Part shown: piece by piece, positions 1 to 45,427 of the stretch | Position numbering within the stretch: position 1 is the first letter of the stretch | How the letters are laid out: the number at the start of each line of letters is the position of its first letter | Origin: Ananas comosus | Taxonomy: Eukaryota; Streptophyta; Magnoliopsida; Poales; Bromeliaceae | DNA: 64,000 nucleotides | Direction: 5' to 3' | Assembly: GCF_001540865.1 (NCBI RefSeq) | Contig: NC_033641.1 | Location: forward strand, 2,881,666-2,945,665 | The notes under the pieces: model-generated | Databases searched by the model: none | What the model was told of the DNA's origin: nothing | What the model saw: only the letters and a program-made list of their open reading frames with translations | Program-made: the position numbers and the translations under genes

Positions 1-326
1 TTTTAAAACTTCGGACTCGAAATCGATCTTTAATCGAATGTCATCAAGGAATCGTCTTTTCGTCAAAGTCTAATCTCTAAAAATCACAATTAAAAAAAAA
101 ATTTTTTTTTAACAAAAATTGAACGAGGTTTAGTAATCAATCTATGTCCGTATGTCGTCAAAACTTTAAAAAAAACAAAATTTCTTTTCAGTACCATCTT
201 CAGTTAAAAACACGTCCCGTTAATATCCTCTTCTTACTACAGTTCGTAACCGTCCCGGACCCGTACAATCATGTTATCAGGTAAAAACCAACCGGGACCC
301 GATCATTAAACCCCTCTCTCTCTCTC

Positions 327-362
<36 letters not shown>

Positions 363-856
363 GGTTCGTGAAATAAGAGAACCTATGAAATTAGGTGAGG
401 TATTTTACTCCGTAAAAAAACTTCCCCACTCATGAGGGAGGAGAGGGAGGTTGGGTGTGGGAAGGGTTGAGTAGTAGTGATGACGGGGAAGGTAGAAGAG
501 GGACGTAACGAAAAGGAGAAAAGGAGGTTTTTAAGTTAGAACGAGTGAGGGTGGGTAACTCGACGTGACGGTGTCAGAGTTAAGTAAAGTAATTGAACAA
601 GTAAAGTTGAAGAGTGAAGAAGTGTAGTCTTCGGGTAAACCCATCATCTCCCCCTTTTTATTTTTTTTCTCTTCTTTTTTTTTTTTTTTGGTGAGGAAAT
701 GAATTTCTCTTAGACTGTGACTAGGACAGGACAAGGAAACCAGAGGAATTGTTTAAAGTTTTGGTTGTTATATCGCATAACACCCTCCTTCCTTTGTTGG
801 GTGGAGAAAAGAAAGGTAGTTTAGTGTGACGAAACACCGCTTAGGTCTTTTGTCTT

Positions 857-905
<49 letters not shown>

Positions 906-1040
906 AGAAGAAACTCCATTTTTGAGTTTAATTTATAAGGGTGAAACGGGGAACTGGGGTAAAACACTTCTCGAGACATCGTCTCCCCTTTCCCCCCACC
1001 TCCTTCGTAACCACTCGACGTACTCCCCGAATGACCTTGT

Positions 1041-1860
1041 TACTCTCTACCCTGAAGTGTCTTTTCGTTCCAAAAAAGACTATTAAAAGAATAATGTCAA
1101 AGAGGTTAAACAACAACATAAAAAGACTTCGACCCGACGAACCCAATAACTGTACCCAGAAACAAAGAGGGGACAAATCGAGAGTACCAGGTTCAGGGAT
1201 CATTCTTTTAACAAGTTGTAATCTTCGTTATTTCGAGTCCTGAAAGTACGTCTACTACGACAACGATCTCCACCCGAAGACTTTATTCGTGAAAGACAAA
1301 GAAGAACACGACCGAGTAGAAGATACTCGAGAAGGATAGAACGATGGAAGGGAGAGATTTTAACTAGTTCAGGACTCACATCATTGAAGAAAAAAGAGGA
1401 TAGTATAAACTTAATGACAAATTTAAAACGAGGTAAAACAAAAAAAGTAAAATTAACGAAGTGTGGTCGATTTATAATGTCTTCGTTTTTTCAAAAAAAA
1501 AATTTTTTTTTTTAAAAGGGGAACAAGTGACAAGTTTAATTATCCGGAAGACACAGTAACGACGTACGATCGGTGTCGGAAAAGGAAGAGAAAAAATACA
1601 GAAATTAAAGAGGAGGAAAAAAAAAAAACCGTCTCAAAAACTTTATACACAAGAAAAAGAGAAAAGTCCTCCCCTACTCCTTACCTCCTCGTCGAAGTGT
1701 CTCTCCCTCCCTCGGTGTCAGTTCTTTTCGTTTTGTCCAAAGTGTCACGGTACAGAGTTCGGAGAGAGTCGAAAAGGAAAGACAACGTAAGAAGAAAATA
1801 GGATTAAGGAGAGTAAACAGCCGAGATAAGCTTAAAAAGGACTTAAATGAAAAGAGCAGG

Positions 1861-1894
<34 letters not shown>

Positions 1895-4459
1895 TCAATC
1901 TAAGAGGTTCTCCTTAGTCCTGGCTCGAGCTGCTCCTTTCTATCTGGAGCTGCGCCGTCTTCGATGTCATTGAAACCTGATATCCATGAAGATTAGTGTT
2001 ATGCTCGTAGGCTTAAATTTAAGCTTGTAAATTTGACTAGTTAAAAGGAGCAGACGCTTAACATTACGAGCAATGGGCGGCGAGAGAAGCTCCCTCATCC
2101 TAGAAACAACGTTGCACCTTACAGCCGCCATTTAGCGGCGGTTCGGTATACTTGGAGCTTCTAACCGAGGTACGAAGCGGAGGACGTCTATAAATACAAA
2201 ACCCCATGAGGGGGGGGGGGAAGAAGTTTACTCAACTTATAGTAACTTTCAAAGTATAGACGTTGACCGGTTAAATAAGGAAAACCGGAGAATCCAAAGT
2301 CCTTTAACAGGGAGATTTACGACCTTTACAAGAACCCTGTCTTCTGTTGCCGGGTCGCTTCTTTACCCACCGAGATTAGTCTTTTTGTGAATTATTAGAA
2401 GGGCCTTGATCGTGATCATTAGCTATGGTTTGGGGGAGGGGATGCTGATGTGGTTAACACCTTTATTTGCTGCTAAAGCTTCCGAGCAATGTCTCCGTCT
2501 TCTCGAGGAGAAAGGAGGTAGCAGTGAGAAAGGTTAGGGAGTTATCAGCATCAAATTCTCACCTCCCTCTATATTACCGCGGAGTTGGTTCCGACCTTTC
2601 CGCAGTATCACACACACTAGCGCAATAAAAGCCATCGTCTAATTCACTAAAACCAGGATTAAAATCTCCCCAACCAAGGAGACTACTACTTTTATAACGA
2701 CCTCTAAGAGGGAGATGTAGGATGATGAGTGGTTAGAGTATGTCGATATCATTACGCAGTAGTTACCTCCTCTCTTCATCTAGTCGAGGTGTTAGTTCCA
2801 TATAATAATAATAAAAAATTCTAGTTAAATGAAACTGGTATCATTTAAAGTACAGAATACTAGGTGGGAGTTACGTAAACGATAATAAAAGTCTAAAAAA
2901 AAAAAAGAAGATTTACACAAATCATGTACGATCGATCGAAAACGGCGTCAGTAAAGACTCATCTTTTAAATACAAGAAAGACTCGTTCAGGTTTTGGATG
3001 GTAATAAATACCGTAATAATCTATGACAGAGCAACGTTCATTCGTCTACCAACCGTATAAAGATTACCACACCCACGCTTCTCTTTATTCCCTACTACAT
3101 TCCTTAGAGTTCCAGAGAACGCAACCCTCTCCCGAGTACCCGATAGAACCTTTGTTCCATTTATAAAGTCCCAAAGGCAATTAAAAAAGAGGCATACAAC
3201 TATACATACAACAAATTAAAATGATTGAAGTGGTCGCTCACAAGACTATCTATAATAGGAAAGAAGAAACTCACTTTTGCATCAAGAATTGTTAAAATAG
3301 TAACTCAAGAATAAACGCTTCTGTTAAGTCTTTAAACAAATTACTAATGTCCCGAGTTAAAGTTAGTCGTACAGCAACGTGGTTTGCTCGAAGACGAAGC
3401 AGACGTCGGTAAACTGCAGACCGGTCTTCCTTCCCCTACTTGAAGCTTCCTTAAGACTGCACTACCTTTAGGACTCTTTCTGAGCCAAGGGAAGTTAAGT
3501 ACCCGATACACTTCTCTTCAGAGGACCTTGCCAGGAACTCGTGCTCATCCTTAGAAAGCGAGTCGAATTCAGCTAATAAAGAAGTTACTACCGTAACTAA
3601 TCAACCAGTTTGAAAACTAAATAACATCAGCTTAGTATACCAAACCACTAAACTTGATGGCCTATCGAGAGAGCATAGCTAGACGGTTCCGAGACCAGCT
3701 CTACGCGTTAACCTTTCGGAACAACCTTTTTCTAGTCCATCAACTCGACAGGAAAATAACTTTTGATAAGACATTGTATATAAAAGTTTCACAACTTTGT
3801 AAAGTCCACCATATACATTATGAAGATGAAAGAGAAGGAACTGAAAAAAAGAAGATAGATCTTTTTACTCTGTCAAAACCGTCATTTGAAGAACACCGGT
3901 CATTCGACTGTCAACTGTCAAAAGGAGTACATTAAAAAAAAAAAGAAGGAAGACACCCAGATTTGGAAAGTAAAAAGTTTGTTCGTCGATTCCTATCTCG
4001 TTTCCACGCCGGCACAGAAGCACCCGACCTTACTTCCTTTTTATATAAAGGGAGGGTGTATATTTATAAGTTTGTTAAGTCTGTCTATGCGGCCCCTACT
4101 GTACTTATATTTTCTTTTCGCAGCTTGAGGACGAACCAACTTTGAAGTTTGAATTAGGTACAATTAAATAACAGCAAAGTCTAAGGTCAAATAGATTTAA
4201 ACATTCAGCTACCCCAAGAAAAAAACCGAACGCATCCACACTAGCGTAAAATACCATACCTTCCCCGGAGTTAGTTGAGAGAATGCAAGCACCTCTCAGT
4301 TCCAAAAGACTAGTATCTGGTCAAACATCGTAAAAATGTAGTCTCCAACTTAGCTAGTTGGTATCGGCTTATGTCTTGTACTCGATGAGATCGAGTGTTC
4401 ACCTATAACTTCTTGAAAAAGGTATGGGTGTTCCCATATGTCTCGAATTAAAGAAAACT
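1041..4459. CDS. Inositol polyphosphate 5-phosphatase (mirror-written, 11 exons)
   Basis: Read as complement with rising coordinates (M-). Exons: 1041-1070, 1180-1270, 1669-1737, 1897-1984, 2100-2204, 2295-2798, 3022-3157, 3352-3545, 3629-3737, 3988-4136, 4237-4459; total 1,698 nt, 565 aa, all introns GT-AG. It starts MRDGTSQKSK then LSWSKSLVRKLFNI, the N-terminus of plant At5PTase1/2-type enzymes. The phosphatase domain starts at IFVATWNVGGKSPP and carries ADIYVLGFQEIVPLNAG, the catalytic FGDLNYRIALSYRS, PAWCDRILWYGRG and SDHRPVCSIF. It ends GYTELNFF. A serine-rich insert lies in exon 6, as is usual in plant homologues. These enzymes remove the 5-phosphate from Ins(1,4,5)P3 and related (phospho)inositides in cytosol or at membranes and damp Ca2+ and ABA signalling. 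Known members usually have WLGDLNYR; Phe replaces Leu here. The paralogue number cannot be fixed. Confidence 0.93.
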
Positions 4460-7400: not shown

Positions 7401-8370
7401 CATATCGTTCGCGTTACTCTAAGGACGTTTTTTGAACTTAAACATCTTCGAAATTGTCAACTGGTTTCGTTTCTAATCCATTAAACTTGGTAAGACAGAG
7501 TATGAAACATTATTTTCTAGCAACGGCGTTTCAACCGGGTCCACACGACGTTTACTGCTACATAAAATACTTCACCTGACAGGATGCACCGCTCCCAACG
7601 CAGTTTATCCTTCTGTTTTAATGTGCTTTCTCTGGAGTGGTAGGATTTGACTCGTGATTTAATAGTTTGTTTTAATTTGGATTTTATAACTGCGTTTAAT
7701 CCAAATTAAAATCACTTTTAACCCCTAAACTCTCAGTAAGCTACCTTAACTCGCTAAACTTCCTCTTCCTACGGGTAACGACCCCGTTTTTCCGGTTCGA
7801 AGCGTCGTCTCGAACGGCACCGTTTTAACAGGTATCTTTATTGACCCTCGTTCTTCACCGTCCTTCTCGTACATTCTTTAGAGTTCACATTGTGTGTACG
7901 TGATTAAAAATTCTTTAATCTTATGCTTTTTCCGTTTAGAATTTTTCATAGTTTTGTAGTCTTTTATCATTCGTTCGAAACATGATAGATAATAATAAGT
8001 TTGATACTCGTTCACCGCCTCTTTTTTTAAGATTGAGTATTTTTTCCTTTCTTTTCTTCTAACGTTTTATGATAACTATTTTTCGAAACTTTCGTTTCTA
8101 TCCATTACTTGTCTTTGTATACAATTTATTATCTTTCATCTATCTACGTCTGTTGTAATCATTCGTTTTTAATATTTTTTATGAACATAGTTTATATATT
8201 CTTATTGTTATTGTTATTATTATTATTATCGGAAAAGTATCTTCCTCTTGCAATAAGTGACCATTCGCTGTCATTCGTGTTAGGGATGATTTCGTTTTGC
8301 ATTAAACTAACTAACAAATTCGTTGCTTTAACGCAAGTCCATCGGTTCCTCGTATTTTAAAAAATTTTTT
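4460..8370. other. Mirror-written intergenic DNA
   Basis: This mostly AT-rich stretch downstream of the 5-phosphatase holds its 3' UTR and intergenic sequence. Short open stretches (for example M- 5,858-5,980 and M- 7,742-7,890, about 40-50 codons) look coding-like in composition but have no recognisable domain and no clear splice context. Homopolymer A/T runs lie at 4,939-4,954 and 6,663-6,679. No gene can be supported. Confidence 0.4.
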
Positions 8371-10494: not shown

Positions 10495-11155
10495 TACAGC
10501 TAGAGCCGCCGTAGAGGAAGGGAGAGGAACAGCAGCAGCAGCAGCAACGCCACCGCGAGGAGGCGGAGGGAGAAGGAGGAGCGGAGAGGCGAGGCGTGGG
10601 TTGCGTTTAGGAGATACTGGGGGACGTTCCCTCGGCGCGAGGCACAGCAGGCGAGCCTCGAGCGTTGGGAGGGCAACGAGAGAAAGAGCTCTCTCTTCCA
10701 CCCGCTCCGTCGCGAGCTCGACGCCAGCCGCGGAGGGCTGTGGCGGGCGCGACAGCAGGTGGCCCGGGAGCAGTGGTTGGCGCTCTTGTCCGCCGCGGCG
10801 TGCTGGAGATGGGACTGGGCGTGGCTCCACGCGCCGCCGCCATCCTTCGGGATCGGGGTTTTCTTCTACCCCGCTCGGGCGGAGCCGAGGGTCGCGTGGG
10901 GCGAGGCCGGGGCCGCCGCCGTAGCAGAAGCCGGGGTTCGGGGCGCTGACCAGGCAGTTCTAGTCGGCATTCCTCTTCGCGGAGCGTTAGAGGTGGCGGG
11001 AGCGGTCGCGGCGGCGGCTGCGGGAGCAGCACCTCCTAAAGTTCCTGGTCAAGCGGCCGTCAGGGTTCTGGTTCCTGAAGCAGCGTCGATACGCGGCTAC
11101 CCCCGAGCTGGGGTTCGTCTTCCTGCCTCCTCCCTAGCTTCTCCTCCGCCCCATC
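10495..11155. pseudogene. RPL4: Chloroplast 50S ribosomal protein L4 copy, intronless and disrupted (mirror-written)
   Basis: Read as complement with rising coordinates (M-). ATG at 10,495 starts a Ser-rich plastid transit peptide (MSISAASPSLSLSSSS). The uL4 body follows: ELATLPLLSF, APPDTARAVVHRALVTN, STLTRTEVRGGGRKP, RARLGSQRTPLRP, IVFGPKPRDWSVKISRKEK, LAISTALASAAADAL, KTKDFVAAMRRWGLDPK. There are three defects. A TAG (10,852-10,854) replaces the Tyr expected after RKP. One extra C near 10,907-10,912 shifts the frame after RTPLRP. Homology stops after GLDPK (11,116), so roughly the last 60 residues are missing; a short tail runs to TAG at 11,153. L4 binds 23S rRNA in the plastid large subunit. 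The lack of introns and the GC-rich tandem repeat just after the break suggest a retrocopy or transposon-captured fragment, but sequencing error could explain the stop and shift. Confidence 0.88.
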
Positions 11156-11856: not shown

Positions 11857-14214
11857 AGTACAGTTTGGTTAGGTAGCGAATTTTCGGTTTCGACGAAGAG
11901 AGGAGGAGTGAACGCGAAGACAAACCTGAAATCCTCGGAAGGGAAACATATTCCAGGACACTATGAACTCGGTTTCACTAGATATGAATATGAACAGTTA
12001 TTTGTAGAAAGGAAAGAGGTAGTATAGATATTGAAGGTACCGGGATTCCTTTTTAGGTGGAGAGTGTTTCGTTATGTTGTTACTTAGGTCGTCGAGGACT
12101 AGTTTAAAGTAACTCGACCTCGAGCGTTCGTGGAAGTAAAGCGGGGTGTTTAGCCAATGAAGGTGTATGAAAGGAGGATATCGTCGTATTCGCCAATGAT
12201 CTCTCACCTTTCAGACTCGGCAACCTGACACCGGGTTTCGGGAGTAGGACAAGTCTCGAAAAACTCGTAGTAAGTAATCGGAGAAGAACGTTTTCTTTAC
12301 ATAGTGCAACAAGGTCAGTACTTGTGGTGTTAGATGTGAAAATAACAGGAACTAAAGGAGGTTTTCGAAACGGTAATCTGTCCAGAGTCGCGGTAGTGGC
12401 GGGGGCAGTTGGTTCAAGAGCTTGAGGGCTATTGGACTAGATCCATTTAACCTAAGAGAGTAGAGAAATTTATCTACCTCCCGCGGCGAGCTTAGTAAAA
12501 CTACATGAAAACTAACTTAGTTTCGGAGCATCGTCGAACTTAGTTCGACCTACGGTCGAACCGCTCGAAGGAAGTTTTCACGAAAATAGAGAAGTACTGC
12601 CAAGAGGAACGTTATCCGAAAATTCTCACTTCTTATTTGTCTCCTCGGTTGAGATTAAGGTCTCTTAGAGTAGAGTAGGTTGTCCAGCACACGAACGAGA
12701 TTGTTGGGATCTCTTTACGTACGTAAATAGTGAACTTGTTGTCAGCTCGAGAGTTATCTCTGCCCTCTTAGAAGGAATGAGCGAGAGTGATCTTTACGAC
12801 GATTAAGCGACTAGGACAGCGGAAGATTTTTTCGCGAGTGTTCAAACCGTATGTAAAAGAGTCAACCTACCTCTTAAGGTACTAGCCTGAATTGGTTAAG
12901 TTGGACAGGGACGTTGAATAGACTATCATCACTTTCATTAAGGAAACGGAGTCGAAGCTCGAAACTTTTCAAGGACAGGAATCGTTTGTTTTGTATGCAA
13001 CCCCGACCCGACAAACTTTTATTCGCGACTAGGAGGCTTCGGTTTAAAAGTATAAGTCTCAAGAGTGTTCCTTTTATCGAAAAGGGACAAAGTTGACGAA
13101 GGTTGTGTCGAAAACGGCGAAGATCCCTGGCGAAACGAAGTAATCGAAAAGAATCGTACAGGTCCTGGTATAAACGTCGTCTTAGATTCAGGGGTTTGAA
13201 GTTTACCGTTCTTTCGTACGTAAGTATCTTGACGACTTTGAGGTTTAGTGATTCTGGTTGTCGGAGTAGTTGTACGGAGAAGTCAAAGACCTCGAGTAGA
13301 GATACGGGCAAGAAGAGTATATATGTCCGGTATTATTATTCATTCGAACGTAATCCGAAGTGTGGATGAGATCCGTAATCAAGTTCTTCGACGAGTCGAA
13401 AAGAACATCAGAGCTTATTTTCGTTTCGCCAGTTTTGATGCAGTTTCTGTTTCCTCAAACCAAAGTAACTATTATCGCCGGACAATGAGAAAAAGGAACC
13501 TAGTTGGGACAACAGAAATTTATCCATTGGTTAGAGGTATTATTCGAGGCGTCGTTCTTTTCGTGGTCAAAAACAAACTCTGTATGCGGGGTGATAACGT
13601 CTGGTACGACGATACCCTCCTTTGTGAAGGTATACATGATTAAAAGAGTAATGCAACCTTCGTTCTTGCCCGTCAAGCGTGGCACTTTCTTACATTCTCT
13701 CCATGTTTTCTCCGAGGAAAAGATTATTAAGTACAAAAAAGAGAAGTTTCCGATCGAGGTGATGTGACATACGAAAAGACTCGGTCACCTGTAGCGTCGA
13801 GAGTCGTTTCGGCCACTATTCGAATCAATCATGACTAAAAGATCCTTCGGGTAGGTATACATACACAAAGAGTATTCGAAAGGTGCGTAGTAGCTTAGAG
13901 AAAAGCAGTTAACGTAAGAGGTTGAGATCTCGATCAGCTCTCCCCAACGCTCGAACCTGGTTGTGGCCAAGCTGGCAGCATCTCTTCTCACGAGGCTTTC
14001 AACCCTACCAAAAACTAGACTACGAGTACTGACAGTGTGGTAACGACCTTTTAGCTGGTTTTCTATCGGTCTATTCGAGCACTAAGAATATTCGATTGCC
14101 GGCTATTGGTCTTACTGAATAGTGGCACGCTACGAAAGGCTGTCTACTCCTATTATGATCACGTCTCTACCGTGCGCTTCTCATGTGCCATACCTCAAAA
14201 GACTCTGCTTCGTA
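11857..14214. CDS. P-class PPR protein, At1g03100-like, mitochondrial (mirror-written, intronless)
   Basis: Read with falling coordinates (M+). One uninterrupted frame of 2,358 nt encodes 785 aa. It begins MLRLRKLHTVYSSRAISAL, a basic, hydroxylated presequence typical of mitochondrial import. Helical PPR units follow, such as FDDAWKAYEKHIHMDGLPRK, SLGLLEQAHDLLDEMRFSG, VYSSLLKAYCKENRHEEI and HDWNNVIHFFCKKRLMNDA. The C-terminus (MFIDKYKYRSLWLKYHRT, KAPKVQTEAQVRRREAALAF, KRWIGLT) matches the conserved tail of the plant At1g03100/At4g17616 group. There is no DYW or SMR domain. P-class PPR proteins bind organellar RNA and act in its stability, splicing or translation; the target is unknown. The 785-codon open frame in mirrored reading is by itself very strong proof of the reversal. 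Confidence 0.94.
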
Positions 14215-14733: not shown

Positions 14734-15775
14734 ATTAGGTAATAATTAATTTTATTTATATGCCTTTTTTTTTTTTTTTTGTCTCCGTGGAAAATGAGAG
14801 TCCCCGCAGCCTATCCAAACACCAACAAACTTGAGCGAGTTTCTCCAGCGGAGCGTGCCAGCCTCCCTCTCTCTGTCTCTCTCTCTTCCACGCGGGCCGC
14901 GAAGGTTTCCACTCGGTCAAATCTTCCGGCCCGGGTTTATGGCCGGGCTGGGCCGGGTTTAAATCTTACCCGGGTTATACTGGATTTGCTCTTTTTTTTT
15001 TCCGGCCTCTACCTAACCCAACCCAGCTTAAACAAGTACTGGCCCGATATTGGAAACTACGTTTCATGATCAACTCCTCAGTCAAATTACGACAACAAAA
15101 ATAAAATATTGCTTTATAAAAAAATTGGATGTACTTGACTTTCCCTTTATTTATTAGATATATATACGCGGAAACTATCTCCGTCTACTTTGTACAACTT
15201 AGAATAAGTTAAGTTTTTTAGATAGACAATGTTTAGTTGTCTTTTATCTTGTATATATATGCAAGACTAGAGTACTGGAATTATTTTTGGTTATACTTTA
15301 ATCCTAATAATGCCTTTGAACTTCTCATAGATGCCCATGCATGTAACAATAGCACACAGATACGTCCGTATACTAGATGCAACATAGAGTATTGTCTTAT
15401 TCAACCAGCTAGAAGCCACCTTCTATTCATTATTATTGTTGTGTTCCCCCCCTCACAATATTTATTTTTGTTTGCTTATTGGCGTTGTATATATACTGGT
15501 AGATTAATTGTACAATGGTAGGTTAATTTTGCATCTTTTGTTGTTTTAAACTAGTAGATAGATAGATATTCAATTTCGTTGCACTATTACTAGTTCGTTG
15601 TTTGTTATTGCCTATTTACGTATTGTTCTAGAAATTTCTAACTAGATTAATTTGTGCGGGGGAGCACGGATATTTTACGGAGGTGGGAAGTAAGTGCAGT
15701 AGTAGTGATGGTGTATGTAAAGGCGAGTAAGTAAGGAAGAGGAAAAGGAGTTAGGTGATGGAAGAAAAGAGCCTT
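14215..15775. other. Mirror-written intergenic DNA between the PPR and xylogen-like genes
   Basis: Both gene 5' ends face this stretch: the PPR gene is read leftward and the xylogen-like gene rightward, so it should hold a divergent promoter region. It contains a (GTA)n microsatellite (about 14,698-14,733), a poly-T run near 14,766 and a GC-rich segment (14,880-15,030) which in M+ reads as repeated gggccgggtcgggccgg motifs common in plant promoters and transposons. No gene can be supported. Confidence 0.45.
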
Positions 15776-16343
15776 TACCGCCGCTTTTACCACCAGGAGG
15801 AGCAGAAGCACGAGCGCCGCTAGCGCCCGACCCCGGACAATAGCCACGTCCGCCTGAGGTCGACAAACTTGAGCGAGAACTCGTACTGCAGCACGTAGTC
15901 GATGCAATCGCTGCTTTCGAGCCTCCAAAGTGGCGACACGACGGGGTCGTAGTCGCGGCACGAGCGGAGCGTCGGCGAGACGGAGACGATGTAGGATTTG
16001 CCGCTCCAGCCGTTCGAGGACCCGTTCGGGTAGCTGCTCAGGGCGCGGGAGCCGGAGGGGCCGGAGACGTTTGAGTGGTGTGGAGGGTATTCGCTCACGT
16101 TGTCATACACAACAGAAAGAGAATTAAAGGAGGAGAGATAGTTGCTGCTATTGATATATATATATAATTAAGGAAAAGAAAATGAAAACAAATAAATAAA
16201 TAAATAATCTAGTACTCTAAAATAAATAAACTACTTATAACGTCGATACGGAGATGGTGGATAAATGGGCCCTCCAGGGGGTTGTACCGGTCCATGCAGG
16301 GAATAGCTATTGTCTACTCATTCTAATAATCTTTAGTATAGCC

Positions 16344-16382
<39 letters not shown>

Positions 16383-16741
16383 CTCTTATATACTAATTAA
16401 TTTCAAAAAAAAAAAAAGGACCAACAATAAGTGGCCGTCGCGGTCGCGGTCGCGGTCGCGGCTGTGACCGTTGTGGTCGCGGTTGTGGCCGTTGTGGTCA
16501 TGCCTGTGGTCGTTGTGGTCGCGGCTGTGGCCGTTGTGGTCGTGGCTGCGGTCGTTGTGGTCGTGGTCGTGGCCGTTGTGGTCGTGGTTGCGGCCGTTGT
16601 GGTCGCGGTTGCGGCCGTTGTGGTCGCGGTTGCGGCCGTTGTGGTCGCGGTTGCGTCCGTTGTGGTCGCGGTTACGGCCGTTGTGGCCGTGGCCGTGGCC
16701 ATGGTCCTGGCCACGGCGGCGGTAGTACACATACGGTGATC
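15776..16741. CDS. Xylogen-like / LTPG-type lipid transfer protein (mirror-written, 3 exons)
   Basis: Read as complement with rising coordinates (M-). Exons: 15776-16103, 16245-16292, 16440-16741, all GT-AG. The signal peptide MAAKMVVLLVFVLAAIAGWG is followed by an eight-cysteine nsLTP domain (SSCLNSLLSMTSCISYVS, SPLCCPSISAVL, QPLCLCYILNGE, GLPGLCKLTTPPISECN). Exon 2 encodes TMPLPPIYPGGPPTWP, a hallmark of this family. Exon 3 is a Pro/Ala/Thr-rich, arabinogalactan-type tract (repeats of PATPAPT) and ends PPPSCVCH at TAG. Family members are secreted, often GPI-anchored proteoglycans at the cell surface; xylogen promotes tracheary element differentiation. No hydrophobic GPI signal is seen here, so either a fourth exon is missed (a GT lies inside the last codons) or the copy lacks it. 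Confidence 0.9.
16440..16710. repeat. 21-bp coding minisatellite
   Basis: The unit as printed is gttgcggccgttgtggtcgcg with point variants, about 12 units. In the mirrored complement each unit encodes PATPAPT, so the repeat is the O-glycosylation-type tract of the xylogen-like protein. As printed it creates long spurious ORFs in four frames (His/Asp/Asn/Arg, Ala/Thr, Val/Ala and Leu/Trp rich) that are not genes. Confidence 0.9.
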
Positions 16742-18696
16742 TATATCTTACCAATCGATATCTAGCTATATCTTTATAAAATCGGTAACAAATCCCCTTA
16801 AGAAAATATACGTTACTTGACGTAGAAGACGTCTATCGATGTAACACAAGATCTAGAATCAAAGACAATCAACCAAATATAACATCAATCGAACATATCT
16901 AACGTATCGTAGTTGTTTTTCAAGCAAAAACAAAAACCTCCATTTAAAGCAACGCCTATCAAGAAAACTACGTAACCAGGAAGATATATAAGAACCGTAT
17001 CAAACTACTACGTTATAATTTAGAACTACGTTGATATATAGGTTATTGATGCACCTCTCCTTTATTCAAAAAAACTCTCTATCCATCGTGCGATGGGCGA
17101 AGCAAATAAAGTAAATCTTTATTTAAATCGACTTTTACACTTAGTTGATCCTAAGTTTGAACCCAGAGCCTATGATTGGTGGTTCGGGAAACGGTGAACG
17201 AGATCCCTGCCCACCACCTCTCCTTATTCAATTTGCTTGTTAGAGAGAGAGAGAGAGAACTGAGCCTCTCTAGCTTAGTCTAGGTTTCGAGGTTGAAAAC
17301 CGGGTATCAAACCCGACACCGGACAAAGAGGGGTAGAGGTCCGGGTTTAACCGGGTAGGGCTAAGCAGAGATCGTAAAGAACCAGGAAAGAGTCCGGGCC
17401 GGGGAATTATCGAGGTCTCTCCAAACCTCGGTAAACAGGTTCCTGTGTACAGTTTCCTGTATTTTTTCTCAATTTATTGGTTTAACTAATCTTAATCAGA
17501 TTAACTTCCAATATTAAATCAATTCTATGTTATACGTCTAGAATAACTTTTGTCTCTTAAAATTTAATATCAATTTTACGGTAAATGTTTAGGATAATAA
17601 CCTTTGTCTCTTGATATATTGATGCACGAAAGCGTTTAGATGACGTATATACAGATGGTAAGTTTTAAGTGGGTGCTTTTGCTTCTACCAGTTAGGAAGG
17701 GTGTTCTATTAAATATCTCTAATTGAATGTCTCAATAGGTTTTTAGTAGGCACTATTGCTTCTACTAGTTGGGAAGGGTGTTCTATCAAATATCTCTTAC
17801 TGAATGTCCATTGTGTGTTTTTAAGTTTGTACTATAGAGGAATGCTTTATCTTTATAAAAACGGGATTGAAGAAACATGAGACAGTTAGAAAATACTCTA
17901 AAAATATTTCCACCGTTCTCAGAGTCTCTTTTCGACACCATTTGGAATAGGTTAACTACCTCTTTAAAATACTATCTACTATATTTCCCGGGGCGTATAA
18001 GTGAAAGTAGTTGTTTGAAGGTTTAAATGTTGACGTGATGGGAAAAGGAAAAAAAAAAAAGTAAAATACTACTACATACTTTTCGAATCAGGAAAGTAAC
18101 TTCATGGGTAGTTAATTATATAAGAAATAATAGTGCATTCGTTTTTTTTACTTGGAACGTTATTTGTTATTTATTTATTATGAGGTCAAGTTTTGACGTT
18201 TGAAGTTGTCTCTCGTAGTTCTTATCGTCTCTTAAATCCAATTTTCCTGGACTAGTGGTATTTACACTCGTAAACTCATGGTTTGTCTCTTTACGGTGAT
18301 TTTTTCATCTTCCTAAGGACCCCAAGTAAGTATATGGTGAGTCGCTTTTTTTTTTTTTTTTTAACATGTTCTTTGTGATTATTTCTCGTCGGATTTTTTG
18401 GTTAGGGAGGGGGGAGAAGAGAGGCCCCCTCTTTTTCTTTTTTCATTTTTTATCTTTCTCCCAGTGAAGTGTTAGAAAGGGGGGTAACCTTCGTAAGTTC
18501 GTTATCATTACTTTTGGATGTCGGTTTTCTGTTGTTGCCTTAGTAAAGATACGTACTTGGGTGGGATACCGGGTTATTTTAAATGTGTAATGTTTCCTTT
18601 TATTTATCGAGAAAGTTGGGTAGTTACTTCCTAAGAATTAGAAAAGCTAGGAAGCTATCTTCTCCTACACTACGGCTTCTTCCGATTATTTGTGAA
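16742..18696. other. Mirror-written intergenic DNA
   Basis: This AT-rich stretch lies between two convergent genes (xylogen-like read rightward, FLZ read leftward), so it should contain both 3' UTRs. It includes the repeat at 17,063-17,230, a GA run near 17,245-17,258, and two copies of a block of about 80 bp around 17,680 and 17,758 sharing gggaagggtgttctat and aaatatctct. No gene is seen. Confidence 0.45.
17063..17230. repeat. Interspersed repeat, mirror-written copy 1
   Basis: Read right to left it gives caagtttgaatcctagttga, ttcacattttcagctaaatt and taaatgaaataaacgaagc. The same words, as a proper reverse complement, occur at 55,384-55,515. Copies of one family therefore sit in this window in normal and in mirrored polarity. 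Confidence 0.9.
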
Positions 18697-20384
18697 AATC
18701 TCTCCTAGCCTCTCTAGATCGCTTGTGAAGAGGAGGCAGGGGAGCAGCTTGTTGTAGAGGACCATGGACGTGAGCGCCGATGTTTTGCGAGAAAGCGGGG
18801 ACTTTTTCCCTCTCCTCTGTTATAAAGTCGACATTGCAAGCTGCACTTCTTAGTTTTCCTAATAAAAGCTGGTAGAATAATATGTATTTCTCAACGTTTC
18901 AATGTTAATGCGTAAGGACGTAGAAAGAGAATATTCTTTTAAAACCATTGATTTTGTTCTTTCTTCCTGTTCTTATTTTCATCTATATTCCGAATGTTCC
19001 AAGAGTTAATACTTCTCTTGTTACGGAGACTGATACCCAGCCGGTGTTACGTACCAATCCTTTCCTCTCGGGGTGTCACATTTATACAGTTCACCTGGGG
19101 GTTTCTCGATATCGTACTGGGTGTAGATAAATAAAAGAAATACGTTTAACGTACCAGGTTTACTTTACTCGTACCGAATTTGTCCAGTTAAGTAAATTGG
19201 TGATCTTGTAAAAAAAATAATAATAAAAAAAAAAAAAGTGAGATCGTTAATTGTTCTTCGTCCGAGTTGTATAATAATGGTCTATTTTTAATTTCTTTGG
19301 AAAAAATTAACGTATATAGTCGTTTTGTTTTTATTGGTTATATCGGTTATAATATGAACTCCCTTTCTTCTCGCGGAGACTAGTCCAACAAAAAAAACAG
19401 TTTTCTTTGTTCGGTTCGAAAACTACTATATTATTAAGCATCGTGCTTAAAAACGCCAATTAATGGTTCTAATTCTGGTTTAATTTCCGGTCGTTGTTTG
19501 GACATGTACTTCTATAGGAAGGGGACAGGCTCTGAGAAGAACGTTCGTACCGTTTTCGAGTTTTTTGGCAGGCTTGGCAAGAAGTCTCCTAGCTGCCCTA
19601 GCTGTCTCTGAGGTAGCAAGAGGAAAGAGCTTCCTTGCTTAGGCAGCAACGTAAAGTGGTGCTACGTCAATAGCTTCTACACTCACCAGGAGCCTAAGCC
19701 GGGCGCACACTACTGTGTTCACATCAGGAGGCTTTCGAGGTAGAGAGAGCCGCTCTCTCTGGGGTGTTTTACGGCGCCTCAAAGCTGTATTTATCTCGAG
19801 TGACCTCAAGATGAATGACCCCTCATGTCGCGTTCAACGCTCGAAAATAAGAACTGTGGTTTAAGATACCCCCTTCCTCCGCCGCCCCTGTAGCCGACGC
19901 AACCTCCCTAAACTTAGGACTCACCACTAGGTTTGTCATGGTAGGATGAGAGAACAAAGTCAAAGAATAGTTGGAAGAGTAGCAACTCTCGTAGCTGCTC
20001 CGGCTCAGGCTGTCCGCAACCGAGGGGTAACAAGCTTCTCTCCAAAAACCAGAGCAAGCGTCGTCTCCCTCGTCATCTGGTTAAGCCGAAGGAGAGCCTC
20101 TTCTTCCCCAAGAAATGCCACCAGCTCTTCCCTAACCGAAGACTTTGTCTCCACCTTAAGTACCTACACCCTCTCAACCCCATTCAGAAACATCTCTTAC
20201 CATCCTTCTCGGAACCCCTTCACTTTTTGCTTCCCCTTCACCCTAAAAACCGCCGCCGCCGCCGCCGCTGTCACCTCAATTATCACCCTCTACACTCCCA
20301 CCACAATAACAATAACGATAACGATAATAATAGTCAGCTTTCTGAGACAAACGACGATTGACTAGATCTGGAAAAGGAGCCGTA
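18697..20384. CDS. FCS-like zinc finger (FLZ) protein (mirror-written, 2 exons)
   Basis: Read with falling coordinates (M+). Exon 1 is 20384-19501 and exon 2 is 18799-18697, with a GT-AG intron of 701 nt; 987 nt, 328 aa. It starts MPRKRSRSVSSKQSLST; a low-complexity N-terminal half (Asn, Ser, Ala and Pro runs) follows. The FLZ domain (formerly DUF581) is introduced by PREMELSEDYTCVITRGPNP. It continues with TTHIFDNCIV, FLSFCHACKKSLGQGKDIFM and YRGERAFCSRECRYQEML, giving the Cys-x2-Cys and Phe-Cys-Ser/Cys zinc ligands. The intron lies inside the zinc finger after IFMYR, as in plant relatives. FLZ proteins are plant-specific adaptors that bind SnRK1 kinase subunits in energy and stress signalling. 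A CT-rich possible leader exon may lie near 21,200-21,350 in the same reading. Confidence 0.94.
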
Positions 20385-22763
20385 TTAGAGAACCTTAAAA
20401 CTAGAGTCTTTGTACCTTTTAACTGTGTGACGTACAGTTCGCTTTTTCTTCTAATTTTATGAGTTGTTAAAACTTTTTCTCCTCTCATTTTTTCTAACTA
20501 CCTTTCCTTTCCTTTTTTATATATATATACTGTTCATGATCGTTGAGTTTACCACCATTTCTCAACTCCCCCATTTCTTGAATGGTTTCAACTTACGTCC
20601 CTCCTATACAAGAAATGACTATAGAAAGAGAGAGTCGTTCAATTACCCGACGAAGACTAACGAAAACGAGTGTGTAATGTCGATGAAGCAATGTGACGAA
20701 TTGGTCTTAGAATATCGTCATTCTTCGTCGCATTCGTTATGATCTAGTGATCTTTTGTGGTGCTCAAGGAAATTGATTTCATTTTGGTTGACGGTGTGGG
20801 TGGCTTTTGGTTTGGTCTCTAGTTTGTTTTTCTTGTTATACATGGAATTTTAAAGGGGACAATAATCAGAGTTGATTAGCTATCATTCTGTTTTAGTGTT
20901 TGTTGGGGCTTTTGTGTTTTTAGTGCCATTTTTAAACTAGAAACTGTGTTTGTCCTGGTCCTAGTTATTTTGATTGGTCCTGAACGACAAATTCTACGAA
21001 GAGACAATCAGGGCAAAGTGTTTTTGTTACTTGTGGTGTTTAGGGGAGGTCTACTATAGTTTTGGGTTTAGTGTCTTAGTTTTGGGGGTTTGTTGGGTAA
21101 CTTGTTTTGTCCTGATCTTTTTGTTGTGTTTGAGGCCCTCCGGGTTTAGTGTTTTTGGTCCTCTTCCAGTGATGTTTTGGTATTTTTAGCGAGGAAAGAC
21201 TCATGAGGAGAGGGAGAGAGCCTCTTGGACGCTCCTCGATTACGTCGCGGCTTCGCGTCTCTTTCTTCTAAATTTCTCTCTCAGCTAATGATGCGGTACT
21301 ACTTCATCTCTCTCTCTATCTCTCTCTCTCTCTCTCTCTCTTCTCCTTCTTCTCACCGCTCTCTCCCCGGGCAAAAACCTGCAAAGGAGGTTTTGGCGAT
21401 AGAAAAGGGAGTAGAGGGCTATGACGATTCAAGCTGCATCGCCAAAAGCCTCAAGCCAGTGGCGGAGCACGCCAGTGGGAGGGTGTTTATAGACGACTAA
21501 GCGGCACTTAATTTAAAAAATCACCCAAGAACAAGGCCTTTACGCCTCCAATAGTAATGCCCCGCCACTAGCATAGCGACCCTTACTCCCAGCGATGTTG
21601 CTGTGCAATACCAATTGCACCGCCAGCGATGCCACAACCCACAAGGCAAGCCCAGGCAGCATGTATCGTATCGCCGAGGTGAGCTCACTCGAACAGAGTC
21701 ACGTATATTTACTCCCTATTTACGTGGAATTACTGTTTTATCAGTAAAATTAAAATTGTAATAAAATTATTTTTATAACAAAATTTAATCAGCAAATCCG
21801 TGTAGCACAAACAAAATAAAATAAAAACTTATTTTAAAATAGATATATTTTTCCACGTACTTACTTATCATTTAATGAGAATCTTAAAAAACTAGGTTCT
21901 ATAATCAAACTGTTGTTTTATACTTTTTAAATTTTATTAAAAAAAATGAAGATTTTATAGAAATTTGTTTATGTTTAATAATAAACAGTAGATCGGCTTA
22001 TGGTCATTTTTTTTTTTAGTTAGAGTTTGTATAGTTTACTGTATTTGAATCATAAAATATTTTTATTTTTTTTTTGGTTTGCTCTGGTAGAATATATCAT
22101 CGACAAGTTTTAAAGATAATCCTATACTAATTAGTATAATAAATGTTTTAAGTCTAATGTTTTAAAATGCACGCCATAGAGATGGTGAGCGGGTTCGTAA
22201 CAGAATATATGCTCGACGTTTCGGGCTTAGCTGAACCGAGCCGAGCCCAAGCCGAGCCGAATCTGCTCAGTGTGTGCGATGAAGTGCCTGAAAAGACGTT
22301 ACGGCATGCCGGGGTGGTTTGACGTCAAAAAATGCCGTGACTTAAGGGGTATAATGGGGGGTGTAGAAGCTTATAGATGTGGGGACACGGTGAGGCTTCG
22401 CTGGCCAGTTTTAGGTGACGCGGTGGTGGCCGCTACCGGAAAAGCATCAAAAGCGAAGAAAGCCACAATTTACAAAGACTATCTATGCAAGTAATAGGAG
22501 AATCGAAAATAGGCGGGGGAAAAAAGGGGGAAGAAAAAGAAAGGGAAGGCTGAGAGCTACGTTTAAACAGCAAATCACTGTAAAGGCCATAATGGGATGC
22601 AAAATACGCCTGGGTGGGCGCGTGCATATCCCATTTTGTCCGTAGAACACGGTGCGCATACGTTCTTCGGCACCGGGTGTGACATGTGCACACTCGCCCA
22701 GGTTGACCCGGGGTAGAGTGTCTAGAAAGCGACTGGCATGCTATTTGATTTTACCCTTAAATG

Positions 22764-33637: not shown

Positions 33638-33923
33638 TTTTACGTACTTTTCCGGTTGGTATATATAGATATATATATATATATATATATATATATCTAT
33701 ATCATATATTAGGGTGTTGGTTGTCACAGAGTATGGGAGGTGGGAATGTTATGTATATATTATATATGTGGGGTGCAGGGGTGGGATGGGGTGGGGGATA
33801 TAGTACCTCGTTTAAGTCCAACCAAATGGAATTTTCCGGGAGGGTTTTGGTAAAGTGTGTAACTACAAGTGGTGGTGGTGATCATGCTAATTAATCCATC
33901 GTTGTCATGCATGATGAAGTGCA
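20385..33923. other. Long mirror-written repeat-rich intergenic stretch
   Basis: I see no gene that can be supported in these 13.5 kb. Contents include a CT microsatellite near 21,309-21,341 (possible FLZ leader region); (TTA)n at about 22,767-22,813; (CA)n at 23,169-23,191; three tandem copies of about 38 bp around tttatcgtggataaagg (about 23,826-23,940); and (TA)n at about 24,441-24,465, 31,986-32,024 and 33,657-33,697. At 29,220-29,735 a GC-rich block in M- reading resembles an LTR leader, with gaaaccctagcctg followed by CT-rich sequence. GGGCCCA-like elements occur near 31,000 in M+ reading. One M+ stretch at 28,680-28,440 stays open for about 80 codons but has no recognisable motif. Confidence 0.45.
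23826..23940. repeat. Three tandem copies of a 38-bp unit
   Basis: The unit tttatcgtggataaagg plus gttttccttttttctta is repeated three times with one-base length differences. It lies in the mirror-written block; no function is evident. Confidence 0.7.
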
Positions 33924-34298
33924 TACTAGTACCTCTATCTCAGCCGTTTCACACTCACAACACCCGACTCTCTCCTAACGTGGGTCCTCATGTATTTTCT
34001 TCACTTCCTACCGAAGCCTCCCTTTACCGAGACGCCCGAGACGAGGCTCCGGCAGTCCCTGCTCCAGGCTCTCGCCTCCTTCTTTCCCTTATAGCCGCCG
34101 GAGCTGCTCCGCCACGTACGGGTATACAGGAAGACGCCTTTCTACTAGTTCAGCTTGGGGCGCCAGGCCCACCGGCTGCCTTACTTCGTTTACGAATCCG
34201 CTTCCAGCCCCCTGAGTGACTCAAGTAGAAGATTCTCCAAGCCCTCTAGCCGCTCGAGCAGCGTCTAACTCCTCCCAAGAAGTCAGAGATAGATAACT
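33924..34298. CDS. DUF1677 family protein (mirror-written, single exon)
   Basis: Read as complement with rising coordinates (M-). ATG at 33,924, in-frame stop upstream at 33,894, TGA at 34,296-34,298; 124 aa. It has the DUF1677 pattern in order: AKCECCGLREDCTQEYI, FGGKWLCGLCSEAVRDE, LDEAVHAHMSFC and SNPAVRVADGMKQML, followed by a Ser/Arg-rich tail. The paired CxxC and CGLC motifs suggest a small zinc-binding domain. The family is plant-specific and largely uncharacterised, so no reaction can be assigned. An alternative Met two codons downstream (MEIESAK) may be the true start. Length is normal and no defect is seen. Confidence 0.92.
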
Positions 34299-37431: not shown

Positions 37432-37600
37432 TCGAGAAAAAAAAAAAAAAAAAAAACTCTCTCTCTATCCATTGTGCGATAGGCGAAGCAAATAAAATAA
37501 ATCTTTATTTGAATCGATTTTTACACTTAGTTGATCCTAAGCTTGAACCCAGAGCTCATAGTTGGTGGTTTGGTGGTTCGGGAAACAGTGAACGAGATCT
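37432..37600. repeat. Interspersed repeat, mirror-written copy 2
   Basis: Read right to left it gives gagacccaagttcgaatcct, agttgattcacatttttagc, taagtttatttctaaataaa and ataaacgaagcggatagcg, ending in a CT run. The family copy at 55,374-55,515 shows the same words in normal polarity. Confidence 0.9.
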
Positions 37601-39546: not shown

Positions 39547-40107
39547 AGTCAGTAGTCGCTATAGGTTTACCTCTTAGGAGGAGTCTAAGAGTCACCGTCA
39601 TCGTCACAAGTCTTTCTTTAGTAACGGGCTGAGGGGTCACCCCCTTCTCCCTCGACTGAACCGCCGTCCAAACGAAAGTAGCAGTATGACGCCGGCACCC
39701 TCAAGCTCGCTGTGCGATGCAAAACCCGCTTCTCACTTGAACCCGTAGCCGTCTCTTGAGCCGCCTCCGCTCAACCTCATTCAACCGGGTCGGGTGTCGA
39801 GTCTCAATCTCTTTAGTAGTAATTCCAATCGATGAGACCCTCTTTGGTTTCCGAAACTCTATCTATACCCAAACGAAGCAGATGAAACGAAACCCCCGAG
39901 GCTCATCTTCTTTCCTCTAAACCCGAGGAACCCGAGTCTATTTCGCGCCCCTCCTCTACGCTCTTTTGGGCGCGGTCTGAGTTTCCTAGCCGTTAACTAA
40001 GGAAACTTCGGCAAACGTCCCCTGCTTCGTTTCGCTAGCCTCTAGACGCTGAAAGAGAACAACACCATTACCGAGGCCACTACGCGTTGTTGGTGTTCCC
40101 AGAGGTA
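39547..40107. CDS. Small PNRC-like proline/serine-rich protein (mirror-written, single exon)
   Basis: Read with falling coordinates (M+). ATG at 40,107, TGA at 39,549-39,547; 561 nt, 186 aa, uninterrupted. It starts METLVVVAHHRSHYHNKRK, then GFKGINCRSFESGAGFL, a Pro/Ser/Lys-rich centre, SELWAGPTYSNSPPPSSLPM and PKFTLRPKRSVSLELP, and ends TATENLRRILHLDIADD. The SPPPSSLP-x-PKF core matches the PNRC-type motif of short plant proteins annotated as nuclear receptor coactivator-like; in animals this motif contacts mRNA decapping factors. The plant role is not established and the family name is my best recognition. Start and stop are clear; a 3' UTR intron is possible. Confidence 0.85.
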
Positions 40108-41934
40108 GCAGGATAAGGTTTAGGAAGGTGTTTTCTCATTTGAAAAGCTAGATTATAGCAGTCGAACGCGACTTCGCGTCATTTTGGATCTCTTTGCTTC
40201 TTTGTTGTTTATCTAGTTGTGTCCCTTGTGGGTATTTTTCGAGGCTTGGTAGCCTTCGTATGATGTTGTTGCGTAGCTCATACCTTTTTACGTGCCTAGA
40301 CTTCGACATGGAGCGCTTTAGCGCAAAGGGCTCAGGTCTAGGCCTCAAATGCGCGATTCGATTCTTGACTCTTGTTTTAGCCATGTGAGGATTCGAATAG
40401 AAGGAGCAAACTAGTGGTTTAAAAGCGTTTTTTTTTTCGATGTCTTGTTGTCTAGTTCGTGGTTTTGACAATTTACCGGGGTTTTCGGTGCCTTTTAGTG
40501 TTTTTGTGTCTATTTAGCTGAGTGGCTAGTAGCTTTCTTTCTTCTTTACGAGCTATTGTGTGACTCTAGGCGATGGCGGTGTTGTTGAAGTTTGGCTCGG
40601 CTCTAAGGGTATAGATATCGATTTTAGAAGCTTTTTCGTTGGTTTTTGATGCCTTTTTCGTGGATGTGCTAGCCATTTGCCTCTCGGCAGCTAGCTCTTC
40701 TGCTAGTTTTCCCCTATTCCTCACCGAATCTCCATAACGCGCCTCTTTTACCCATGCCTCTTCGCTTCCTAAACTTGAGGAGCAGAAGAAGGAGGAGCTC
40801 CCTCGAAACATGATGGTTGTTGCCTGAACTTGGGTGAGTATTGACTTAAATTTATAAGCGTCCTGGCCACGTGCGTAGGGTGGGAAAATCTGGCTTCCCC
40901 GTATTCGCGATGATAGCATGCTTGCGGGCATACGTAGAGCAGCACGCCCTGTAAGTGTTGGCATGTATAGCGGGGGCGCTTGTTATTAGGTGCCGTTCAC
41001 ACTCTAGGCGTATCTTTAAAAAAATACTCTAGCACTCTTGTTTACGCGTCTCTTGTGCATCACTTACCCGGTTGTTAACGAGTTATAAATGTTCCTACGG
41101 TGAATCAGTGTTGGTGAGGCCAGGGATAGACTTACCGTAATAGCAACATAACCAGTTCTTAATAAAATCACCTGACCCATCTATAAACCTGCGAGTGCAT
41201 GCGTGACGTGGCACCCTATAGTTTAGAGTTGGCATCTTTAGTTTAACAAGAGGGGCTCGCTTAGTGTCCTACGACAGTGCACAGTTGCTAGACCTGGCGG
41301 ACTAACTCATAATGTGACATATACCAGTAAAAAGGCGGCATCTAGACTTGCTCATCAATTTGACCTACTCCAGTATAGTGCGCATATATCATATATGGAT
41401 CAATTCTTTACAAAGAATACTGTTATAAAAAAATTGATTAGAGGATTTGCCGATTTGGGTCACTATTTATTCGAGTAACTTATACCGGCGGTGTTTTTAG
41501 TTTTAACTACTTAAACTAGATATGGACGATTTTATTTAAAGTATTATAGTAAAAAACAAGACATTTTCCTAACGAAATTAATTCAACAAATTTTTTGAGT
41601 TTTCGTAACTCTACGAAAAGATCTTCATCTTAGTGACTCAATTTTACCCAAAATATTAAACCTTGTCTTTTTGTGTTTCAAAAGTTTATATATATATATA
41701 TTTCAGGGCGACCCTATGATAGCTATCATAGTTCCTAAACCATGATAGCTCAAAAAGTGACAATTTAAATTAAGAAATTAATAAAAATGGGCAATCTAAT
41801 ATAATAAGTTGGTTAGTGAGTGAGTTGAGATTTCCCGGGTGTAGTAAGATTGGTGTATAAAAAGTTAAGTTCCCAATTTTTTAATTATCGTAGTTATTAA
41901 ATCACGATAACTATCATAAGTTCGGCTCAGATCA

Positions 41935-41970
<36 letters not shown>

Positions 41971-43320
41971 GTACTTTTCTTTTCAATTGTGAAGTCCCAG
42001 TAAGAATTTACCTGAACTTCAACTACTATAACCAATCTATTATCATACCGTTTTCATCAAAGGGTTTGGAAAAAGAGTGACACCCGAGGTAGCTAGATTT
42101 TTTATATAGTCGTTTCACCCCTGCACTACAACCTGGTTTACTTTCTTCCCAACATCTTTCGTTTCACCCCTGCACTACAACCCACACAATAAAATACAGA
42201 AAAAAAAGGGGTCATATAATATTAGACTAAATCGTAACAAAACACTAAGAACTAATTTGTTGTACTCACGTCCGATAACGTACAACGTTCGTGGTTCAGG
42301 ACGAGGCTGGAAAATGATAAACTTTTTACCCGGACTTTCTACTCAGGTCCTGGTCGGCACTATCTTGTTAGTTGATTGAAGTTAATAATCTCCCCTTTTG
42401 AAGTTTGTGGGGGGATACTAAATCGGAAAACTTTGAGATGATAGGATATTAAACTTTTCAACGTATTTTATAGCTGGCATAAATCGTATTGACCGATTAT
42501 TGAACTACCAACTATAGTTCTAGGAGTTGACGTTTTGGATTAGTCAGCCTAAATAAAAAAATTTTTTTACTTGCTTTGCCTAACCAAATAACTATAGGAT
42601 AGTTAATCAAATAACTATCTTGTAAAACAAAACTCTGAAATGTATTTCATTTCGTTTTACCAATAAAAAGAGAATTTCGAAGTTGACGATATTTATTTAG
42701 AAATATTATTAAATATAAATTATTATAATCACTGAATTATTAAAAATAAGTCGGTTCCATGCGTTAGTAATAAGTATGTTGGGAAATTTACTACCAACAC
42801 CCAAGCCTTTAGGTGATGAATTTTGGAAAAAAATGTGTTAAACTAGTTGTTTGGTGAGCTAACTTGAATTAGTAACTCTGGCTCTTATTTTGACGGCGTA
42901 CGAAAAGGAGAAGGAAGCATGAAGAGTTAATAGGTATGCGTACTATTCTATACGTACTACTCTTTGTGCGTAACGTACCTTGTTTATTTACACGTAGGAA
43001 ATTTAGTAGTATGATCATGATGTCATGATATAAAAAGGAATGAAAGGATGTTTACCGACATGTGCTTCGTGGGTTTGGCGTTTTTATTACCGTAATAACC
43101 TAGTTTACAATCAATAGCTATGAAGTCAATCAACTACTATTGTGACATAATTTCCGTGTCTTTACGTAAAGGACTAACAAAATGTACTTATTATAAACAG
43201 GACCTATTGTATCTCGTTACTCTACGTATAGGTTCTGTTCCCTCGTCATTCTGTGACGTACATGTAAACTATAGAACGAGACGTTTTAATGTTCAATGGA
43301 AGAATTTATGAACATAAGTA
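40108..43320. other. Mirror-written intergenic DNA
   Basis: GC-moderate sequence at 40,140-41,300 is followed by AT-rich sequence. A (TA)n run lies at 41,937-41,967, and a 22-bp word gtttcacccctgcactacaac is repeated at about 42,110 and 42,160. As printed, the minus strand holds a 132-codon ORF (40,566-40,964), but the mirrored polarity of both flanks argues against it. No gene is supported. Confidence 0.4.
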
Positions 43321-45420
43321 AGTGGTTTTAAGAGGTGTTCTCGTTCGGGGTAGAAACTTGGCTACTTTCGCCGAAGATAGAGAGTTTTGTTAGAGAGAAA
43401 GCATATAGAAACTGCGGCTGAAGTACTTACTCACCGTTAGAAGCGTTTGGGAATCTAAGAAACGATAAGATTACTGTCTTGGGGCGCGGCTTAACTAGTC
43501 GGGTTTTCTTTCTCGATTAAAGAGTGACACGTATTCTTGCCGGGGGGAGAAGAGAAGAAGGAGGTTTAGTTGGTTACGCGAGGGGTGTAAACCTCTCATT
43601 GGGTAAAAAGGATTAAGAAGCTGATGGAGCAAATTAAAATTTATCTAAAGGAGTAAAGATCCTACTCTATGTAGGGGGTAGTTTTTGAGTACGTGAAAAG
43701 GTAAGTCGAGGTAGGTCGATGTGGGAAAGAGGAAATTCTGGGGGGATCTAAAGTAGACGAAGGAGTGAAGGGATTGTAGTAGGGTGGATGGTCGAAATCG
43801 TATCTCTAAGCTCTCTTCGTGTATTCGGGGTAGTACTGCACCCAGCTCAAGGTTTTCGGAAAAACGTCGGTTAAGTGGCTAGAGCTGAAGAGGTACCTGG
43901 GATGTCCGGGGATTATCTCTGGGGGTCTGTTGCTGTAAACCAGCTTCTCCGTAGCTGAGATATTCAACTTCACGAAGAAGATCTTCGGCTCGAGCTGGCT
44001 CCTCTAGGTGGTATGTGGGTTTTACGAGTATGAAACCGAGTTATAACACGAGAACTCGGTAGCTAGACTTATGGTTAGATGGGAGAAGCTGGTTCGGACG
44101 TACCGACGTTCGTATCTCGTTTGGTCATTTACATTGTGATAATCCGAGTTGGGGAAGCTGAAAGTACGCTAGCTTGTCCCGATTACGACTAGAGGGTAGG
44201 GGTACGTATCGGTTCGGACACTAGTATGAGCAGGTTCATTAGTGTAAGGAAGCTCCGTAAAGCAACTTATAGAAAACACGTACTCGGTTCGAGGGCGTAA
44301 ATCTCTTGTACAGCTAGTCTCGTAACGGGTGTCTGTTCTGTCATGCTTTGGGTAAGAATAACTGTATTTATACTTAGGTAAACCGAACTAGTTCTCGTGG
44401 GTTTAATCGTGTTCGACTATGCTGTGAGTTATATCACTAAAGTAGACCGAATTCTGGTCTAAGAACGTAGTATAACTTGTTAAAATCCCGAAGTGACCCG
44501 GCTAGCGAAAGGCGCATTGGGCTATAGTATCGTGAGGTTCTCTGTTCCAGGAACAAACCGTAAACTAGTTTATACCTGGCGCGTTAGAGGTACACCGGTT
44601 CGAACCGTATGGGCTTTTGGTACCGTCAACTACGTTGATTCAAGAAACCTGTGTAGGGTAGTTTGTTAAAGACCCGATAAAGGTACCTGGGTGTTAACCT
44701 CATGTGACACTATTCGCGTGAGACTTCCACACACAGCTAACTCCCTAGCCTAACATCTTATATTGTCACTTCGCTGAAAGGCTTGTAGTTTAAAAACCGA
44801 GCAGGTGTGCGGCTCTCCTGCCACCGCTCCTATTGGACTAGCCCATGATAAGGCCTCGAAGAGTAGAGATGTTTGTCGTTGTCCCGGAGTCTCATCGCCG
44901 GCGAGACTGTTATGGACGGCCAAACTTAATCTATCGAAGCACCTTTAAAACATCGTTCTGTAACCTTCTATGATCAACGTATTAAACAGAATTGTCTTCG
45001 TTTTTTCTCTCGGACACTTTCTAAATAAAACAAAAAGATCTATATTTTTAACAAGGCTTTCATTTGTACTATATTTTACCTATCCGAATTCCGATTCCAT
45101 CATATAATGGGTAGTTCGTATTGAGGGGTGCGCTGCTCTAGAGCGACGCCGTAAGATAGCTTGTGGGGAGCGCGCAGGCGCTGCGCGGGCTCTCGCCGCA
45201 CCCGCGGGTGGTCGCGCCAGACTTGCTTCCCCAGCCTCAGCTCGGGGTTGGAGCGTCGCTCGGGCACCCGGAGCGCGCGCCGCAGTAGCGGCCAGGCCCG
45301 ACGCCGGGCCTCTTGGCGCCCCTCCCACTTGGCTAGCCCCTGCTCCGGCCGAGCGGACTTGGCCCGCATCCGCGCCTCCCGGGTCGCGCCGAGCCGCCGC
45401 GCCTCGCGACGCGCCTCCTG
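43321..45420. CDS. PLS-class PPR-DYW RNA editing factor, 5' end lost at junction (mirror-written)
   Basis: Read with falling coordinates (M+). Exon 1 is 45420-45110 (5' incomplete), a GT-AG intron spans 45109-44915, and exon 2 is 44914-43321; 634 residues are visible. Exon 1 is very GC-rich (AEPRWALRAYARFRRAGLVP, LAARLGLDSDPF). PPR units include NALIDMFSKCGSLAHAQKIF, NVITWTSMITGLAMHGDG and VTFTGLLYACSHAGLVEEGR. E/E+ motifs follow (WGSLLGACRVHGEVEIGE, LKEKGCSWMELNGKVHEFL), then the DYW deaminase with HSEKLALSFG (zinc and Glu active site) and CEDCHSFM, ending CSCGEFW instead of CSCGDYW. Such proteins carry out C-to-U editing of plastid or mitochondrial RNA. No ATG or targeting peptide is present because the reading runs into the mirror junction. 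Confidence 0.95.
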
Positions 45421-45427
45421 CGCCATC

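Follow-up and report, generated by a model that had tools for sequence, protein, structure and literature searches.

The window analysed here, a stretch of 64,000 nucleotides, raises the question of why the genes in its first 45 kb make sense only when the letters are read backwards, and how such a block came to be joined to its neighbour. We find that bases 1 to ~45,425 are normal pineapple-like plant nuclear DNA whose letters stand in reverse order but uncomplemented ("mirrored" below, as opposed to "printed"). An earlier note on this DNA had claimed such a reversal, and mirrored genes, repeats and, for the most part, k-mers agree with it; a refutation test set beforehand, in which the string was reversed without complementing, returned plant protein matches. 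The left end of the reversed block lies at or beyond the start of the window.

1 to 45,425, no strand assigned: block with its base order reversed but not complemented, by directional k-mer score, mirrored genes and mirrored repeats

Coding capacity and compositional direction of the block

The open reading frame (ORF) listing of the mirrored block holds 45 ORFs of at least 100 aa, among them frames of 793, 571, 317, 293, 266 and 240 aa, while the longest printed ORF has 218 aa. When the mirrored block was randomised 60 times under a first-order Markov model, the longest ORF reached 229 aa at most and 149 aa on average, and the 218-aa ORF of the printed block exceeds the maximum of 185 reached in its own 60 randomisations. 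A first Pfam scan matched seven of nine mirrored ORFs, these nine having been chosen by eye from the 45. Among ORFs of at least 150 aa, a Pfam family was assigned to 5 of 15 in mirrored order versus 0 of 4 in printed order, the latter taken from both strands, and two mirrored ORFs shorter than 150 aa also carry a family. No family was detected in 10 of the 15 mirrored ORFs, nine of them, of 150-293 aa, covered by a second scan, nor in any of the four printed ORFs of the right-hand part that were included in the same scan as the printed block ORFs.

Homology searches gave the same direction. The mirrored block was matched by 240 of 360 fetched proteins, the other 120 being homologues of an enzyme encoded in the right-hand part, and none of the 360 was listed against the printed block at 1e-5 (tblastn, both strands); since the 240 had been fetched with mirrored queries, they are evidence of polarity and biased as a sample.

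Directional k-mer models built from one side only point, for the most part, to the mirror polarity. Trained on the right part only, the score fell below zero in 42 of 45 1-kb windows within the block (k=4; 41 of 45 for k=5); trained on the mirrored block only, it rose above zero in 13 of 18 windows between 46,001 and 64,000 (k=4). A two-sided model that leaves out the 4 kb around each window gave negative scores to 85 of 90 500-bp windows in 1-45,000 and positive scores to 30 of 37 in 45,501-64,000. The split is not entirely clean: parts of the block show no definite direction, with five of its 90 windows scoring positive, and seven of the 37 right-hand windows score as mirrored. An Rfam scan, run on the printed window, returned nothing that reached the gathering thresholds, which left no RNA genes to mark polarity.

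Mirrored genes

Pfam identifies eight genes or parts of genes in mirrored order, and pineapple homologues confirm two of these as well; the exact earlier tally of six complete and three partial genes was not reproduced.

11,857 to 14,214, no strand assigned: mirrored intronless PPR gene, At1g03100-like, 785 codons plus stop, read right to left
43,321 to 45,425, no strand assigned: mirrored PPR-DYW gene, read from 45,425 down to 43,321
2,057 to 4,459, no strand assigned: mirrored inositol polyphosphate 5-phosphatase, 7 exons, 486 codons modelled, left to right in complement letters
10,817 to 11,152, no strand assigned: mirrored ORF with ribosomal protein L4 match (PF00573, 8.7e-16)
15,653 to 16,213, no strand assigned: mirrored lipid-transfer protein (LTP) ORF (PF14368, 8.4e-14)
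19,485 to 20,435, no strand assigned: mirrored FLZ zinc-finger ORF (PF04570, 2.6e-09)
33,897 to 34,295, no strand assigned: mirrored DUF1677 ORF (PF07911, 2.5e-35)
39,550 to 40,347, no strand assigned: mirrored ORF with PNRC motif (PF15365, 9.6e-08)

The two PPR genes carry the strongest identities. The 785-codon intronless frame reported previously is present, with its ATG at 14,214 and its last codon at 11,860; the 793-aa mirrored frame contains the whole of the PPR protein P0121 of Ananas comosus, identical at 723 of 723 residues, whereas the best match of P0121 to the printed letters has an E value of 0.36. Pfam assigns PPR and TPR_At1g68980 to this gene. In the PPR-DYW gene, the 571-aa frame together with the exon upstream of it reproduces residues 103-664 of A0A6V7QSY8 from Ananas comosus var. 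bracteatus without a difference, over 562 consecutive residues. This identity spans an intron (45,109-44,915) that starts with GT and ends with AG in mirrored letters, and codons 1 to 102 of the public protein are missing at the polarity switch. Within the aligned stretches, then, these two left-hand genes show 100% identity to proteins from different sources, var. bracteatus for the one and A. comosus for the other.

At its other end, the PPR-DYW mirrored frame closes with CSCGEFW and a stop. A0A6V7QSY8 departs from this reading beyond residue 664 and, stopping at residue 672, lacks a DYW domain, suggesting that the public gene differs slightly in frame; at 43,321-43,542, the window frame stays open to its end where the public protein diverges.

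The exon chain of the 5-phosphatase, joined in frame, matches PF22669 (1.2e-74) and OCRL (4cmn_A, 5.1e-56). An 11-exon protein of 565 codons had been proposed in this block; the part downstream of its N-terminal exons was modelled, and seven exons with 486 codons could be joined in mirrored letters. Only GT-AG candidates were considered for the six introns, with the family sequence as a guide if more than one was suitable, so that their GT-AG ends do not count as independent evidence. The printed letters give CA and TC at the same places.

Near the mirrored lipid-transfer ORF lies a tandem repeat (16,398-16,791) whose mirrored frames are simple Ala/Gly/Val or Thr/Asn/Ser repeats.

The polarity switch

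45,419 to 45,426, no strand assigned: polarity switch with no N at the join, at the end of the A0A6V7QSY8 match and inside the PPR-DYW gene
45,427 to 45,534, + strand: hairpin repeat just after the switch (self inverted repeat 45,420-45,539, 82% over 122)

The mirrored codons match A0A6V7QSY8 from residue 103 (position 45,423), two more bases (45,425-45,424) fit codon 102, and the mismatch begins there; the block end at 45,425 given previously is therefore correct to about six bases. Because five-base pairing extends the hairpin to 45,420, the exact point of the switch is uncertain within 45,419-45,426. N runs in the window are confined to 58,727-58,826 and 59,084. In all, 54 inverted-repeat pairs are listed for the window, many of them overlapping low-complexity pairs and many just to the right of the switch. 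A target-site duplication around the hairpin, sought by eye between base 1 of the mirrored block and base 45,426, gave no match, a weak test.

Repeats and genes of the right-hand part

In a blastn comparison of the block with the right-hand part at E 1e-3, the mirrored block gave four matches (E 2.3e-32 to 3.2e-24) and the printed block none; the whole-window version of this search added one weaker cross-match (4.5e-05).

41,703 to 41,967, no strand assigned: mirrored repeat copy, in opposite polarity at 46,572-46,832 (71.7% over 265 bp, 2.3e-32, only after mirroring)
17,068 to 17,209, no strand assigned: mirrored repeat copy, in opposite polarity at 55,387-55,522 (82.5% over 143 bp, 1.2e-29, only after mirroring)
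60,797 to 60,880 and 61,384 to 62,310, + strand: exons of dihydrodipicolinate synthase, normal polarity (PF00701, 2.9e-89)

The second of these repeats has an additional mirrored copy at 37,439-37,570. As the matches appear only after mirroring, the two parts have repeat families in common but in opposite polarity, with the copies at 46.6-46.8 kb and 55.4-55.5 kb standing opposite to the block; common families are what pieces of one genome should show. The dihydrodipicolinate synthase of the right-hand part stands in normal polarity, its long exon being identical to Ananas comosus P0241 at 303 of 309 residues; a search of the window for residues 1-30 of the pineapple enzyme found no match.

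Between the switch and this gene the direction is less uniform. The dinucleotides of 45,426-49,950 are neutral in polarity, and a Pfam scan of 45,426-50,527 in five of its six printed frames produced a single match, below threshold (E 0.005). By k-mers, 50,001-52,000 leans towards mirrored, with a strongly negative score at 50,001-51,000, within a region of mostly normal polarity; it may be another mirrored piece or else an unusual repeat. For 49,951-52,100, the six printed frames gave a single chance-level Pfam match (E 0.34) and three of the six mirrored frames gave none.

Just upstream of the exon at 60,797, positions 59,085-60,780 form a perfect palindrome of 1,696 bases, beside the single N and near the 100-N gap. 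It is likely a fold-back assembly error.

Origin of the mirrored block

The block has mirror polarity, there are pineapple matches on both sides, and the switch takes place within a few bases with no N at the join. Its gene content is ordinary plant DNA and its polarity is an artefact. A plant genome affected by an assembly or file error, as the earlier note had it, fits the tests run. The most likely origin, which we hold with good though not full confidence, is that a contig was flipped by plain string reversal during chromosome assembly, because, to our knowledge, no process reverses DNA without complementing: inversion, palindrome formation and replication all act through antiparallel strands. 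We infer the assembly step at which the error arose. An opposite-strand contig being oriented for joining would have had its letters reversed with the base swap omitted, and the mirrored string would then have been abutted to a contig starting at the hairpin repeat. The hairpin would account for a contig end at that place; it does not explain the change of polarity, since a hairpin can cause only a reverse-complement flip. Known contig orientation errors in scaffolding are alike in that a contig-sized block lies in the wrong sense at a join, but the usual result is a reverse complement whose genes can be read on the other strand, whereas the block in the window is unreadable on both. A reverse-only string operation gives exactly the letter pattern seen here, and reversal without the complement step does occur in scripting languages or sequence tools. 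In the block, genes are readable in reversed base order only, a sharp switch cuts through a gene (the A0A6V7QSY8 match starts at residue 103), and repeats are common to both sides only after mirroring (four versus none at E 1e-3).

A point against reversal during assembly is that the var. bracteatus protein set contains one mirrored gene in correct polarity, so the window would come from a different assembly or haplotype copy, or from a copy that has been altered. The main rival is that the mirror block arose after deposition, for instance through format conversion or an edit of the window, and that the public record is correct. The content of the window cannot separate an error at deposition from a later one, and two of the mirrored genes have public proteins of correct polarity. 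The switch, however, lies within a few bases of the hairpin edge, a natural place for a contig end. This argument is weak, as many of the 54 inverted-repeat pairs lie just to the right of the switch; the lack of a target-site duplication around the hairpin, judged by eye, also speaks weakly against a later change. As the hairpin argument proved weaker than first judged, we slightly lowered our confidence in string reversal during assembly and slightly raised that in later editing, which we nevertheless regard as unlikely, though plausible.

Explanations that place the reversal in the plant fare far worse. The hairpin at the switch would suit a genuine chromosomal inversion or palindrome, but real inversions are reverse complements and readable on the other strand, and the letter order already refutes an inversion: the block is not the reverse complement of a normal locus, none of its four printed ORFs of at least 150 aa on either strand has a Pfam family, and tblastn with the fetched proteins listed no printed match at 1e-5. 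We therefore consider this reading extremely improbable. Mirror-order DNA really present in the plant, for instance through parallel-strand copying, has in its favour the letters themselves and nothing else; polymerases copy antiparallel strands, and pineapple has known proteins that equal the mirrored readings exactly. We regard it as practically inconceivable.

Implications

Among the titles and abstract openings that were screened, none reported a reverse-only string fault in a plant assembly, and the available portions of PMC8824783, PMC8774480 and PMC7194464 do not mention a mirror fault. The available portion of PMC8824783 gives 186,700 gap bases, a multiple of 100, for the CB5 assembly and a BUSCO score of 92.6%, below those of GL1, F153 and MD2. 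The 100-N gap in the window fits an assembly such as CB5, without identifying the source. It is also conceivable, if rather doubtful, that the fault is genome-wide in a released pineapple assembly, with every contig that needed flipping mirrored and its genes hidden from annotation and homology search.

The value of the finding is as a warning on data quality. A reversed-only sequence keeps its length and base composition and would pass format checks, and the genes in it vanish silently from annotation, from gene counts and from comparisons. Should the public record contain the fault, 45 kb and at least eight genes would be invisible there, and apparent gene absence in that accession would be false. 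A per-contig comparison of k-mers with their mirror images would detect such blocks.
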